Assembly: GCA_009695275.1 (NCBI GenBank)
Contig: SIBF01000027.1
Location: forward strand, 1-34,325
Reading direction: 5' to 3'
DNA: 34,325 bases
DNA from: Pedosphaera sp.
GTDB taxonomy: Bacteria > Verrucomicrobiota > Verrucomicrobiia > Limisphaerales > F1-12-MAGs170
Shown: positions 10,980-15,797 of the stretch, piece by piece
How positions within the stretch are numbered: the stretch's first letter is position 1
Layout of the letters: each line of letters opens with the position of its first letter
Notes under the pieces: model-generated
What the model was told of the DNA's origin: nothing
Seen by the model: only the letters and a program-made list of their open reading frames with translations
Databases searched by the model: none
Position numbers and translations under genes: made by a program

Positions 10980-11940
10980 ATGCAGGGTGTCAGCAAATTC
11001 CCTATGCCATCCGCCACCCAGATCGGTTCTCCGAACTTCAAATGCGATCTGTCGCACCTCGGAGCGGTCCGTGTGTCGAGTCTGCTCCTTGCGAGTTGTG
11101 TGATTCTGTGGTGCGCGGCCGCCGGGGCTGTCGACACGACTGGAGTGAAGAAATTCCGAACCGAGATTCAGCCTATCTTGAAGGAGTATTGCTACGAGTG
11201 CCACGGCGATGGAACCGACAAAGGTAAAGTGGTGCTTGATCAATTCGCATCAGACTCGGCCATGGCCGGCGATCAGGATCTCTGGCTGCGTGTTCTGAAG
11301 AATGTCCGCGCGGGTTTGATGCCGCCAGCAAAGAAGCCGCAACCTCCAGCAGCGCATAAACTGCAACTGGAGCAATGGATCAAGACGGCAGTGTTCCAGA
11401 CAGATGCCAGCAACCCTGATCCCGGCCGTGTGACAGTGCGCCGCCTCAACCGCGTCGCGTATCGCAATACGATCCGCGATTTGATGGGTTTGGATTTCGA
11501 CACTGAGAAGGAGTTTCCGCCCGACGATTCCGGCCATGGCTTTGACAACATCGGGGACGTGCTCACGCTGCCGCCCATGTTGTTGGAAAAATATCTCACC
11601 GCAGCAAAGACCATTGTTACCAGAGCCGTGCCCGCCGTGCCTGGTGTGCCGGAGGAGATGATCAGCGTCGGTCGGAACTTTGCCGGGGCGGAGGGGCTGG
11701 CATCCAGCCGGACCAATCGAATGGCGAAGTCTCCTAACGCGCTTAATCTTTCGTATTACGAACACGCCTCGGTTTCGAACACGTTCAAAGCCGTGCATTC
11801 CGGAAAATACCAATTGCTCCTGGACTTCGCCGCGAACGAGAGGTTCGTGGACAATCAATTCGACTACAACAAGTGTCGGCTCGTATTCAAGGCGGATGGC
11901 CGGGAGCTGCACAGCAAAGAGTACACGCGCGAAGGCGGCC
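10980..11940 (+). pseudogene. 5' half of a cytochrome c/DUF1587 (DUF1592-family) protein gene
   Basis: After a signal-like segment (VSSLLLASCVILWCAAAGA) comes a planctomycete-type cytochrome c motif, YCYECHGDG (CxxCH haem site), then a DUF1587 region (VRRLNRVAYRNTIRDLMGLDFD). The family normally continues with DUF1595, DUF1592, DUF1588 and DUF1585 domains to about 800 residues or more. Here the coding similarity ends after GRELHSKEYTREGG, and the next bases read as a DUF1552 protein in another frame. The gene has lost most of its 3' part, apparently by a deletion with its boundary near 11930-11950. The track ORF runs to 11981 through out-of-frame sequence (AKARSSNSAAP). The start could be the ATG at 10980 or the internal one eight codons later. 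In intact form these proteins are exported and of unknown function. Confidence 0.75.
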
Positions 11941-13097
11941 GAAGGGCGAAGGCAAGGAGTTCGAATTCAGCCGCACCCTGAAGCCACTGGAACCGATGCG
12001 CCAGCACTTGCAAGTGCTCGGCGGACTCGATCAAAAATCCGCTGAAGGCGGCCCCGATGGCGGTGGTGATCATGCCCGCGGCAATGGTGTCTTCCTCACC
12101 GGCGTTCGGCTCAAGAAGAGCGCGACGGACATTCGCGCGGGCATCTCCATAGAAAAGCCATCGCGCGCGAGATCGGCCATCTCACCCGGTTTCCTTCATT
12201 GGAATTGAGCAGCGACGACATCCGAACCTCCGGCGCGTGCGACTCGGGTTACGCTTGCGCCTACCAGTTCAACCTTTCGTGGAGCTCCACCACGACTCCG
12301 GTCGCCGCAGAATCCAATCCACGGATGGTTTTCGAGCGGCTCTTCGGCACCGGCGCTCCCGGCGAGCGCACGGCGAACATGAAGCGCCGGCAACAGGAGC
12401 AACGTTCCGTGCTGGACTTCGTGCTGGAGGACGCACGCGGGATGAACCGCCGGCTCAATGGGCGCGACAAGGATAAGCTGGACCATTACCTCACAGGCAT
12501 CCGCGAAATCGAGACCAGCATCCAGAAGGCGGAACGGTTTGGCGTGGCAAAGGATCCGGGCACTGAAACACCGCCGGGAATCCCCCAAGACCGCGCGCAG
12601 TACATTCAGCTAATGTTCGACATGCTCGCACTGGCCTTCCAGACTGACTCGGCACGCGTCGTCACGATGCTGCTCGGGCACGACGGCGACAACCGTTCGC
12701 TCCCCGAGATTGGCATTGCGGAAGGTCATCACGACCTCTCGCATCACTTCAACAGCGAAGACAAGATTCAAAAGCTCAAGGAAATCGACCTGTGGTACGG
12801 AAAGCAGTTTGTAAAGTTTTTACAGAAGCTCCAGGACACCAAGGACGCGGATGGTAATTCAGTCCTGCACAACTCGATGATCCTTTACGGAAGCGGTAAC
12901 GCCGACGGCAACCGTCACACACACTCAAACCTGCCACTCATCCTTGCGGGTGGTGGTGGCGTGTTGACGCCTGGCCGCTCTACGTCCAACACGGTTCAAA
13001 GCCCATGACCAACCTGTTCCTGAGCATGGCGGACAGGATGGGGGCGCAGAAGCTGGGCAGTTTTGGGGATTCGAGCGGCCGGCTTGAGGATGTGTGA
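11941..13097 (+). pseudogene. Frameshifted 3' part of a DUF1552 protein gene
   Basis: The sequence reads as a DUF1552 protein in three successive frames. Frame A (to about 12150) gives GKEFEFSRTLKPLEPMRQHL and DHARGNGVFLTGV. Frame B (from about 12157) gives AIAREIGHLTRFPSLEL, GYACAYQFNLSW, NPRMVFERLFG and AEGHHDLSHHF to about 12975. Frame C (from about 12980 to the TGA at 13095-13097) gives YVQHGSKPMTNLFLSMADRMGA and GDSSGRLEDV, the expected C-terminus. The N-terminal signal and first tens of residues are missing, having been lost with the 3' half of the preceding gene. Three lesions in one gene point to real decay. Function of the intact family is unknown; it commonly follows a DUF1592-family gene. 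Confidence 0.75.
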
Positions 13098-13145: not shown

Positions 13146-14255
13146 TCAGTTCCGCCCGATGCGCAGGCGAAGATCCACGATCTCTCCGGAAATCAGGTTC
13201 AGGGATTTGGGAAGACTGACAAGAAGCGGCAGGCCCATCTCTGTTCCACGCTGCATTCCGGGCGACAAGAGTGTGGCTTTGATTGGCTCCAACTGTACAC
13301 CAACATTCAGGACGGTTGCTTCCGCAATCTCATGCTTGAACGAGCGAGTGCGGACCTCGACCGACATTCCTTGCTTTGGCGACATGAAGAAAGGTTGACG
13401 CACGTAGGCCACGATTTTGTCAGACTGCCCGCTGGTAATGGTCACGATGGACTCGCCCGCCATGACTGATTCTCCCGACCTTCTGAGGATTGAACTCACA
13501 ACACCATCGATGGACGCGTACAAGGAAATCGGGCTCATCTCGGCTTCCGTGAGACGCAGCTTCTCTTCCTGAACGTGTATCGATGCCTGGAGGATGGATT
13601 GCGCCGGCAACGCGTTGGTCGAGCCTGGAACTTGCGGTTCGCGCAACTGTAGAGCCGCGAGGTTCTTCTGCTGTTCAGAAATTAGTAGCGTGCGCTCTTT
13701 GATTTCAGCTTCGAGTCGTTCCTTCGTGATCCTTGCCTGGTCGTACAACTGTTCTGAAAGGATCTGTTGTTTGAATAGTTGTTCTGCGCGGCGAAATTCG
13801 CTCTCCGCCAGCTGCAACCTGGTCTGCGCCGTCGTCAGCACCACTCGTTGCTCCATCCAGTCAAGCCGAAGGCGGTCATAGGCCAAAGCGTACCGCTGCT
13901 CACCGAGGAGAGGCTCGAGATTGACTTTCAACAATTGGATTTCCGCCAGAATGACTGCCAGCGATGATTGAAGTACTCGTGGGTCTGCGATGATGACCTG
14001 GGCTACCCGGTCGCCAGCCTTGAGATGCTGCAGCCTCGAAACGTTGAGGTCGGCGAGCACACCGGACTTATGGCAGGAAACGCTTGCGTTCACCGGTTCC
14101 ACCTCTCCCACCAAAACCGTCGTCGGCACCTGCTGGGTCCAAAGCCAGGCCGCCGCAGACACGGTGGCAAGGAACATGATCACAGGCACGATCCGGATGC
14201 GGAACTCGCGCCATCGTTGAGCTGCTGGAATCGGGATGGGGCTAAGGTCAGTCAT
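13146..14255 (-). CDS. HlyD-like membrane-fusion/periplasmic adaptor protein
   Basis: The 369-residue protein has one N-terminal membrane anchor (IRIVPVIMFLATVSAAAWLW, about 20-40), a split lipoyl-like/barrel region (SGVLADLNVSRLQHLKAGDRV about 64-84 and ASIDGVVSSILRRSGESVMAGE), and a long alpha-helical hairpin between them (about 95-235, rich in Leu, Gln, Glu and Arg). This is the layout of HlyD/membrane-fusion proteins that bridge an inner-membrane machine to the outer membrane. No ABC, RND or MFS transporter gene lies next to it. Instead it follows the DUF4956 gene by only 4 bp in an operon headed by a VTC-type polymerase. I infer that it serves the VTC/DUF4956 pair. Confidence 0.8.
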   Translation of the reverse strand: MTDLSPIPIPAAQRWREFRIRIVPVIMFLATVSAAAWLWTQQVPTTVLVGEVEPVNASVSCHKSGVLADLNVSRLQHLKAGDRVAQVIIADPRVLQSSLAVILAEIQLLKVNLEPLLGEQRYALAYDRLRLDWMEQRVVLTTAQTRLQLAESEFRRAEQLFKQQILSEQLYDQARITKERLEAEIKERTLLISEQQKNLAALQLREPQVPGSTNALPAQSILQASIHVQEEKLRLTEAEMSPISLYASIDGVVSSILRRSGESVMAGESIVTITSGQSDKIVAYVRQPFFMSPKQGMSVEVRTRSFKHEIAEATVLNVGVQLEPIKATLLSPGMQRGTEMGLPLLVSLPKSLNLISGEIVDLRLRIGRN

Positions 14256-14259
14256 GCCT

Positions 14260-14946
14260 TTACAGTTCGGACTCCTCTTCCGCTTTCAAACTGGCTACTC
14301 GTGACACTCCCTGCAAGACCCGGAGCTCATTGATCAATTCCTCCACCCGGCTTGAATCGCGCAAAAGCAATCGGTAAGAGAGATCGGTTCCGTCGTAACC
14401 TTCTTGAGATCGTTGGCTGGCGCAATGATTGGTCAAACTGTAGCGAGTCAACAACTGATGGAGATAAGTTAGATCCGACAATGGTCTGGCCCAGTGGAGA
14501 TTCAGTATCAAATCGTATCGCTGGCGGCTGCCAAACGCCGAGTACCAAAGCAACAACAACACACACACCAACACCAGACATCCGACGATCGCTGTGGCGA
14601 ATTTCTGGGTTCCGCACGCCATTCCAAGCACAATGACGGCAAGCACGTAAGTCGTGTCGAAGGTATCGCGCAGGATGTTGCGAAATCGTACGATCGCAAA
14701 GATCGCCATCAAGCCGAAGGCCGTGACCAGATTGTTGTTAAGAACTTGCATCACAAGCGCCACCAACATGGGCATTACCACCAGTGAATTCACGAATGAC
14801 TTGGAATAGGAAAGTCCCGCGTGAGTCAACATGTAAACCCAGGCGATGATCTGGCCAAATGCGAAAGCCAGCAAAACCCCGAGGAGCACCATTGGCAGGT
14901 TCGTCGGGGCGGCGGCGTAATCTCCGCGCATCATTGATTCTATCAT
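14260..14946 (-). CDS. DUF4956 integral membrane protein
   Basis: This protein of 228 residues has about four to five hydrophobic helices in the first ~140 residues (LPMVLLGVLLAFAFGQIIAW, FVNSLVVMPMLVALVMQVL, TYVLAVIVLGMACGTQ, IVGCLVLVCVLLLLWY) with a conserved-looking cytosolic loop GLMAIFAIVRFRNILRDTFD between them, which is the DUF4956 hallmark. A soluble C-terminal domain (about 145-228) looks like a small alpha/beta ferredoxin-like unit (LSYRLLLRDSSRVEELINEL, VSRVASLKAEEE). Its ATG overlaps the VTC-gene stop (ATGA), indicating translational coupling. DUF4956 proteins are known to co-occur with VTC-domain genes, sometimes with CotH kinases; their molecular role is not established. Confidence 0.85.
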   Translation of the reverse strand: MIESMMRGDYAAAPTNLPMVLLGVLLAFAFGQIIAWVYMLTHAGLSYSKSFVNSLVVMPMLVALVMQVLNNNLVTAFGLMAIFAIVRFRNILRDTFDTTYVLAVIVLGMACGTQKFATAIVGCLVLVCVLLLLWYSAFGSRQRYDLILNLHWARPLSDLTYLHQLLTRYSLTNHCASQRSQEGYDGTDLSYRLLLRDSSRVEELINELRVLQGVSRVASLKAEEESEL

Positions 14947-15797
14947 GCAAAACTTAGATTGAATGTTCCAGCGGCGGCGCGCTTCAAGAACTCCCGCCGG
15001 GCGGCGAGATTTTCCATCGTCTGCGCCTCAGTTGGAGACTCGAAGCTTGGCCCCGTCAACCGACGTTCGCCGAGCAACACCACACCATCAGCATATTTCG
15101 CGGCAGAACATTGCACCAGACCAAAAAGTCTGACCAGTTCCCCAAACCAGTCGGGAAAACGTCCGGTGAACTTGAGCTCCAGCACGACCTGGCCATCGAA
15201 AACCCGCGTCGGCCTGATCATGCTTGTCAGAAACCTGATCCCGGGTTGGGATTCGCAACAAATATCCCTGTCCATCGTAATCCGAACGGCGTTGTTCTGC
15301 GGGCTGATCCAGGCTTCTCGAAGATAGGAAACGTGAGCTTTTGGATTGGCCCGATTCTCCAGCATCAACTGGTTGAAGCGCTGAAGGGCTCCAAGATCTT
15401 TGGCGGACGCAGGCTTGACGAGATCGGCGGGAGCGGGGAGATGCCCCGCGATGAGAGATGCCACCCTCTCTCGTCGAACAGCGCCTCGCTGTTTTAGGAT
15501 TGCGTCATTCATCCGACGCTTGATCTCGAAAAAGACTGGGGATTCCGGTTTCTCATCGTAGTATCGGATCCGTAGCTTGTAGCGGTTCCTGTTGCCGTTT
15601 ATGGTCTGCCAGTAATAGTCAAGCTGGTCAGAATCCAAATACAGGCTGTGGACGGGATAAGACAGATTGGGGCGTGTGGCTCCGAATTCATCCACCTCCA
15701 GATGCGAACGAACAAACTCCCGAACGTTGACTGCTACAGTTTCGCGAACGATGTATTTGAGTTCGAATCTCTGTTGCTGGAGGTTGTCGGTAGCCAT
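14943..15797 (-). CDS. VTC-domain (polyphosphate polymerase-like) protein
   Basis: The protein (284 residues) is a triphosphate-tunnel-type VTC domain, the catalytic fold of yeast Vtc4, which makes polyphosphate from ATP. The basic and acidic tunnel residues can be read off: RFELKYIV (Lys 14), RYKLRIRYYD (Arg 76, Arg 78), FFEIKRR (Glu 91, Lys 93), VRITMDRDI (Arg 172) and VVLELKFTGRFPDWF (Glu 207, Lys 209). They appear complete, so the enzyme is likely active. There is no signal or membrane segment, so it is expected at the cytosolic face. It is the first gene of the operon and is coupled by 4-bp overlap to the DUF4956 gene. The exact polymer made (polyphosphate or another) is not shown by the sequence. 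Confidence 0.88.
   Translation of the reverse strand: MATDNLQQQRFELKYIVRETVAVNVREFVRSHLEVDEFGATRPNLSYPVHSLYLDSDQLDYYWQTINGNRNRYKLRIRYYDEKPESPVFFEIKRRMNDAILKQRGAVRRERVASLIAGHLPAPADLVKPASAKDLGALQRFNQLMLENRANPKAHVSYLREAWISPQNNAVRITMDRDICCESQPGIRFLTSMIRPTRVFDGQVVLELKFTGRFPDWFGELVRLFGLVQCSAAKYADGVVLLGERRLTGPSFESPTEAQTMENLAARREFLKRAAAGTFNLSFA

Follow-up and report, generated by a model that had tools for sequence, protein, structure and literature searches.

A conserved VTC-DUF4956-HlyD operon of Verrucomicrobiota suggests an undescribed machine for making and exporting a phosphate polymer

Introduction

In yeast, the VTC complex couples polyphosphate synthesis with translocation (PMC9911596). The locus described here resembles this eukaryotic complex (Vtc1/Vtc3/Vtc4) in combining a VTC tunnel domain, with its conserved basic residues, and a membrane partner, and coupled synthesis and translocation is also the mode of action that we propose (PMC9911596). 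Unlike the eukaryotic complex, it has no SPX domain, uses a separate MgtC-like transmembrane protein instead of a Vtc1-type transmembrane domain, and is extended by a periplasmic adaptor, to which other classes add an outer-membrane channel.

In bacteria, the closest described arrangement is found in streptococci, clostridia and bifidobacteria, where genes for CotH, the polymerase and DUF4956 adjoin pel genes (PMC7112168), and the three-gene synteny was reported not to have been found outside pel loci (PMC12345266). The VTC and DUF4956 families, the homologue with MgtC transmembrane region and ACT domain, and the CotH partner are common to that cluster and to ours. The Gram-positive cluster is tied to pel, with no HlyD or OEP reported (PMC7112168, PMC12345266), whereas here HlyD (elsewhere also OEP) belongs to the unit, CotH genes are scattered over many genomic sites, and a search of the surroundings identified no pel genes. 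In Streptococcus intermedius, deletion of the DUF4956 or the CotH homologue caused an aggregation defect, while none was reported for deletion of the VTC homologue (PMC12345266); because of this difference, the components perhaps do not all act in a single pathway in that species.

Two further systems offer partial parallels. The alginate synthase Alg8-Alg44 likewise pairs an inner-membrane polymerase with a partner carrying a membrane-fusion-protein (MFP) domain, which is presumed to provide the connection to the exporter in the outer membrane (PMC3815931), but it is a glycosyltransferase making a sugar polymer, its MFP domain is fused to PilZ, and its porin AlgE is not of the TolC type. Tripartite TolC-dependent exporters (EmrAB, MacAB, RND) share the HlyD/MFP adaptor and, with the operons of other classes only, the same-operon OEP; here, VTC-DUF4956 stands in the place of the ABC, MFS or RND pump. 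In the open-access literature, where absence is no proof, we found neither a description of HlyD or OEP together with VTC-DUF4956 nor a bacterial polyphosphate exporter.

Results and discussion

The locus was identified in a stretch of 34,325 nucleotides (hereafter, the window) from a Pedosphaera species of the order Limisphaerales. Three genes on the minus strand (13146-15797) encode, in order of transcription, a VTC protein (PF09359, triphosphate-tunnel polymerase domain; 14943-15797, 284 aa, Pfam VTC 1.9e-41), a DUF4956 protein (PF16316, MgtC-like transmembrane region and ACT-like tail; 14260-14946, 228 aa, Pfam DUF4956 1.1e-12) and an HlyD/MFP-type periplasmic adaptor (13146-14255, 369 aa, Pfam HlyD_3 6.3e-7, NCBIfam RND_mfp 9.7e-17). 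The 4-bp overlap and the 4-bp gap of the original prediction are both exact: the VTC stop and the DUF4956 start share ATGA (14943-14946), which suggests translational coupling, and four bases (14256-14259) separate the DUF4956 stop from the HlyD start. A scan for promoters and terminators gave no more sites than shuffled sequences. Convergent with the triad, the plus strand carries a 333-aa PSCyt1-DUF1587 fragment followed by a DUF1552 protein without the first ~110 profile positions (10980-13008), resembling the remnants of a broken gene pair.

The VTC domain covers profile positions 2-232 of 235 with 142.6 bits against a curated Pfam cut-off of 23. In an alignment of 26 sequences, all residues previously named as evidence of an intact tunnel (K14, R76, R78, E91, K93, R172, E207 and K209) are invariant, as are K102, R104 and K234. 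The profile matched yeast Vtc4 structures (E 3.4e-13), with R76/R78 aligned to Vtc4 R264/R266; the counterpart of Vtc4 E426 was placed by its position in the family and not by direct alignment. VTC was the only domain found by Pfam in the 284-aa protein, which has neither an SPX nor a Vtc1-type transmembrane domain, and a hydropathy scan gave no transmembrane segment. The protein is thus predicted to be a cytosolic polyphosphate-type polymerase; its product is deduced from the family, since the open-access literature searched gave no biochemistry of a bacterial VTC. Elsewhere in the order, one genome with an intact triad (G054) also carries a VTC gene with an in-frame stop (L085, 6332-7213), an apparent pseudogene. 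Putative CotH-VTC and VTC fusions in very long open reading frames (L287, L078) were discarded, as the extensions are readings of another frame and have no domain match.

DUF4956 had been proposed to be a membrane channel or scaffold. It shows several transmembrane segments in the hydropathy scan and a Pfam match of 48.4 bits (cut-off 30.6), and turned out to have a known kind of fold: its profile aligned with that of MgtC over 201 columns, comprising the transmembrane region and the ACT-like tail (hhalign, probability 98%, E 1.1e-13), while HlyD and VTC as controls were negative (E ~0.6). The MgtC profile also matched a DUF4956 protein of the same genome at 6.7e-4, and the streptococcal homologue has been described as an MgtC transmembrane region with an ACT domain (PMC12345266). 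Against MgtC proper (PF02308), the best DUF4956 of this genome reached 21.9 bits, below the curated cut-off of 31.4. Based on the full-length profile alignment and the streptococcal description, the DUF4956 sequence is that of a full-length distant relative of MgtC, not of MgtC proper. A profile search of the PDB with DUF4956 gave no match.

This relationship opens a regulatory or sensory reading of the operon, in which VTC would make soluble short polyphosphate or bind nucleotide or phosphate, the ACT-like tail of DUF4956 would sense it in the manner of MgtC-type regulators, and HlyD would signal to periplasmic CotH kinases, with no polymer crossing the envelope. Besides the MgtC-like protein with its regulatory-type tail, Salmonella MgtC is described as a regulator whose targets are ATP synthase and PhoR (work cited in PMC12345266), and a third point in its favor comes from the adaptor. 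HlyD has the layout of a periplasmic adaptor, with one N-terminal transmembrane segment (residues 18-40, hydropathy scan) and a barrel-sandwich/HlyD_3 domain, and its closest solved relative is EmrA (3.5e-15). In the HlyD type of the order, the cytosolic N-tail bears an invariant I-P-x-P followed by a conserved W-R-x-F-R and is the best conserved 25-residue stretch of the protein (mean majority share 0.64 vs 0.48 behind the transmembrane segment), which would fit a docking or signaling contact. The tail may reasonably be supposed to dock on VTC or DUF4956. In the divergent-type HlyD, the motif is missing and the tail is basic. Close relatives of the triad HlyD occur without a DUF4956 neighbor (G008:C74, G053:C155, G039:C495, G039:C108, G019:C190 and G032:C4), and shortened relatives (open reading frames of 240-260 aa; L053, 5336-6058, and L065, 4803-5585), whose profile match is confined to the C-terminal part, lie divergent from VTC-DUF4956.

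The linkage of HlyD to VTC-DUF4956 is not a peculiarity of this genome. VTC is present in 45 of the 58 genomes of the order, and the three-gene unit recurs with differing flanks (82 stretches). When 84,980 species genomes were scanned, 68 of the best 80 DUF4956 loci, counted as independent genome loci, carried VTC-DUF4956-HlyD in that order, which excludes an adjacency restricted to this genome; at the others of these 80, one gene was missing, HlyD was inverted, or the contig ended. HlyD lies directly downstream of 34/41 order-type DUF4956 genes, mostly within 20 bp (gap ≤36 bp in 33/34 order members), and DUF4956 and HlyD remain paired in genomes whose VTC gene lies elsewhere (e.g. G011, G012, G016, G038). 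In the genome of the window, contig 132 carries another complete triad (L004) and contig 157 a divergent VTC-DUF4956 pair (L005). Triads were also found in other Verrucomicrobiota classes. Pairwise distances among the three proteins correlated at 0.40-0.53, values obtained without a control gene and given no weight here. Solo VTC genes were also considered as a separate system and rejected, as several of the genomes carry a DUF4956-HlyD pair elsewhere. One could argue that HlyD is merely an unlinked part of a drug-efflux system, given that the family is common and solo copies of the subfamily exist in a few genomes. The constant order, strand and near-zero spacing across dozens of genera with varying flanks, together with the recurrence of DUF4956-HlyD-OEP in other classes, leave this chance neighborhood, already refuted for gene linkage, a practically negligible probability.

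Strong support for an envelope-spanning system, as had originally been supposed, came from a fourth gene. Other classes have a divergent type of VTC-DUF4956-HlyD, and at 16 of its 17 loci a TolC-like gene follows HlyD on the same strand, and such OEP-bearing operons occur in at least nine families of these classes. The OEP match exceeded the Pfam cut-off at L256, L257, L258, L260, L264, L266, L268, L269 and L295; the L261 group lay at or below it (21.7 vs 22), and L263 had none. The profile of the L261 group nevertheless matched other OEPs with a probability of 95% (E 2.9e-8), compared with E 0.04-0.4 for controls. Components for the inner membrane, the periplasm (adaptor) and the outer membrane (channel) are therefore all encoded in the divergent four-gene operon, whereas an ABC, RND or MFS pump is not; the absence of such a transporter, first noticed for the triad, extends to the four-gene operons. 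No OEP lies beside the window operon or the other triads of the order, with the exception of one genome showing the order HlyD-OEP-VTC-DUF4956 (G022, L090). A dedicated operon OEP in at least nine families is hard to explain if nothing crosses the outer membrane, and we consider the purely regulatory reading unlikely.

Next to the operon there is indeed no gene for CotH, Ppk or Ppx, as had been noted. This observation holds for the immediate neighborhood but is misleading for the genome, which contains ~27 CotH matches and a full-length PPK1. Within the order, CotH was detected in 45/45 VTC-positive and 4/13 VTC-negative genomes (45/0/4/9; p=7e-8). Among 288 genomes of the phylum, the figures were 54/57 and 21/231 (54/3/21/210; p=3e-37), three VTC-positive genomes having no detectable CotH, and at the genus level 39/3/10/100 (p=2e-23); kinship is handled in these tests by the collapse to genera only. 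PPK1, used as a control, showed no association with VTC (p=0.68 in the order, 0.39 in the phylum). Since PPK1 is present here and independent of VTC, a replacement of PPK1 by VTC is ruled out. Given this tight genome-wide link, the lack of an adjacent CotH gene is no sign that the system works without CotH. CotH genes are greatly expanded in the order (G000-G057), with ~27-34 matches (up to 62 candidates) in many genomes and none in nine.

A physical linkage is seen as well. Contiguous, co-directional five-gene operons of VTC, DUF4956, HlyD, OEP and CotH occur at L256, L257, L258, L261 and L287. In the order, CotH adjoins 4 of ~32 triads where ~1.2 would be expected, a modest enrichment (p=0.04). 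By a crude heuristic, 32/38 CotH N-termini are signal- or anchor-like, and the proteins contain domains typical of surface proteins, such as LTD and Fn3-associated ones. One locus contains two VTC-DUF4956-CotH cassettes in opposite orientation, ~6 kb apart and with several genes between them (L289, 2454-17534; G214). Furthermore, the VTC-DUF4956-CotH set exists in monoderms, whose envelope lacks an outer membrane. It occurs without HlyD on Planococcus and Pseudobutyrivibrio plasmids (Bacillota), and neither HlyD nor OEP was present at the two monoderm loci examined. The presence of the set in stretches with no annotated or identified pel gene (Planococcus, Pseudobutyrivibrio, Verrucomicrobiota) contradicts the statement that this synteny was not found outside pel loci.

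Alternatively, the operon could be an accessory to a pathway for exopolysaccharides or surface proteins, in which a glycan or protein destined for export has its phosphorylation modified or energized by VTC and DUF4956, and HlyD-OEP exports that substrate or a lipid and not polyphosphate. The proximity to pel genes in Gram-positive bacteria, the glycosyltransferases adjoining the Pseudobutyrivibrio cluster and the altered Pel level or aggregation of deletion mutants (PMC12345266) speak for it. The cassettes of the order have no further conserved neighbor, however, their flanks vary, and the co-occurring partner is CotH, so that such an accessory role appears improbable.

Altogether, the gene architecture of the system is well supported, and the sequence data suggest that a phosphate polymer is produced and exported by a machine not described before. 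As a working model, we propose that the synthase is coupled to an exporter spanning the envelope, which delivers polyphosphate or a related polymer to secreted CotH proteins, a combination to which we would give even chances. In this exporter, cytosolic VTC would polymerize the phosphate of ATP to polyphosphate or a close phosphate polymer, which the family and the invariant tunnel residues make fairly likely. The growing chain would be received by the MgtC-like DUF4956 protein as inner-membrane component, a role that we slightly favor, and DUF4956 might gate it. From there HlyD would, quite probably in light of the gene order, reach across the periplasm to an outer-membrane channel of the TolC type; other classes encode this channel within the operon, and in this genome its gene presumably lies elsewhere. 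As in yeast VTC, polymerization itself could drive the chain outward and would replace an ABC, RND or MFS pump. More tentatively, considering the association with CotH, the polymer may act as phosphate donor, ligand or matrix for CotH proteins that are secreted or sit at the surface. Points against export are that MgtC relatives are not known exporters, Salmonella MgtC being described as a regulator (PMC12345266), that neither the window operon nor, G022 apart, the other triads of the order have an adjacent OEP, that three VTC-positive genomes show no CotH, that CotH adjoins few triads of the order, and that several order genomes have solo HlyD copies. The most far-reaching version, a dedicated polyphosphate secretion machine of VTC synthase, DUF4956 gate, HlyD bridge and TolC-type channel whose surface polyphosphate is the phosphoryl donor of secreted CotH kinases without ATP, is rather doubtful.

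Conclusions

The neighborhood data provide a testable parts list, namely VTC, DUF4956, HlyD, OEP and CotH. They assign DUF4956 to the MgtC superfamily and connect the CotH expansions of Verrucomicrobiota with a specific synthase. The system bears on the question of how kinases outside the cytoplasm obtain phosphate.
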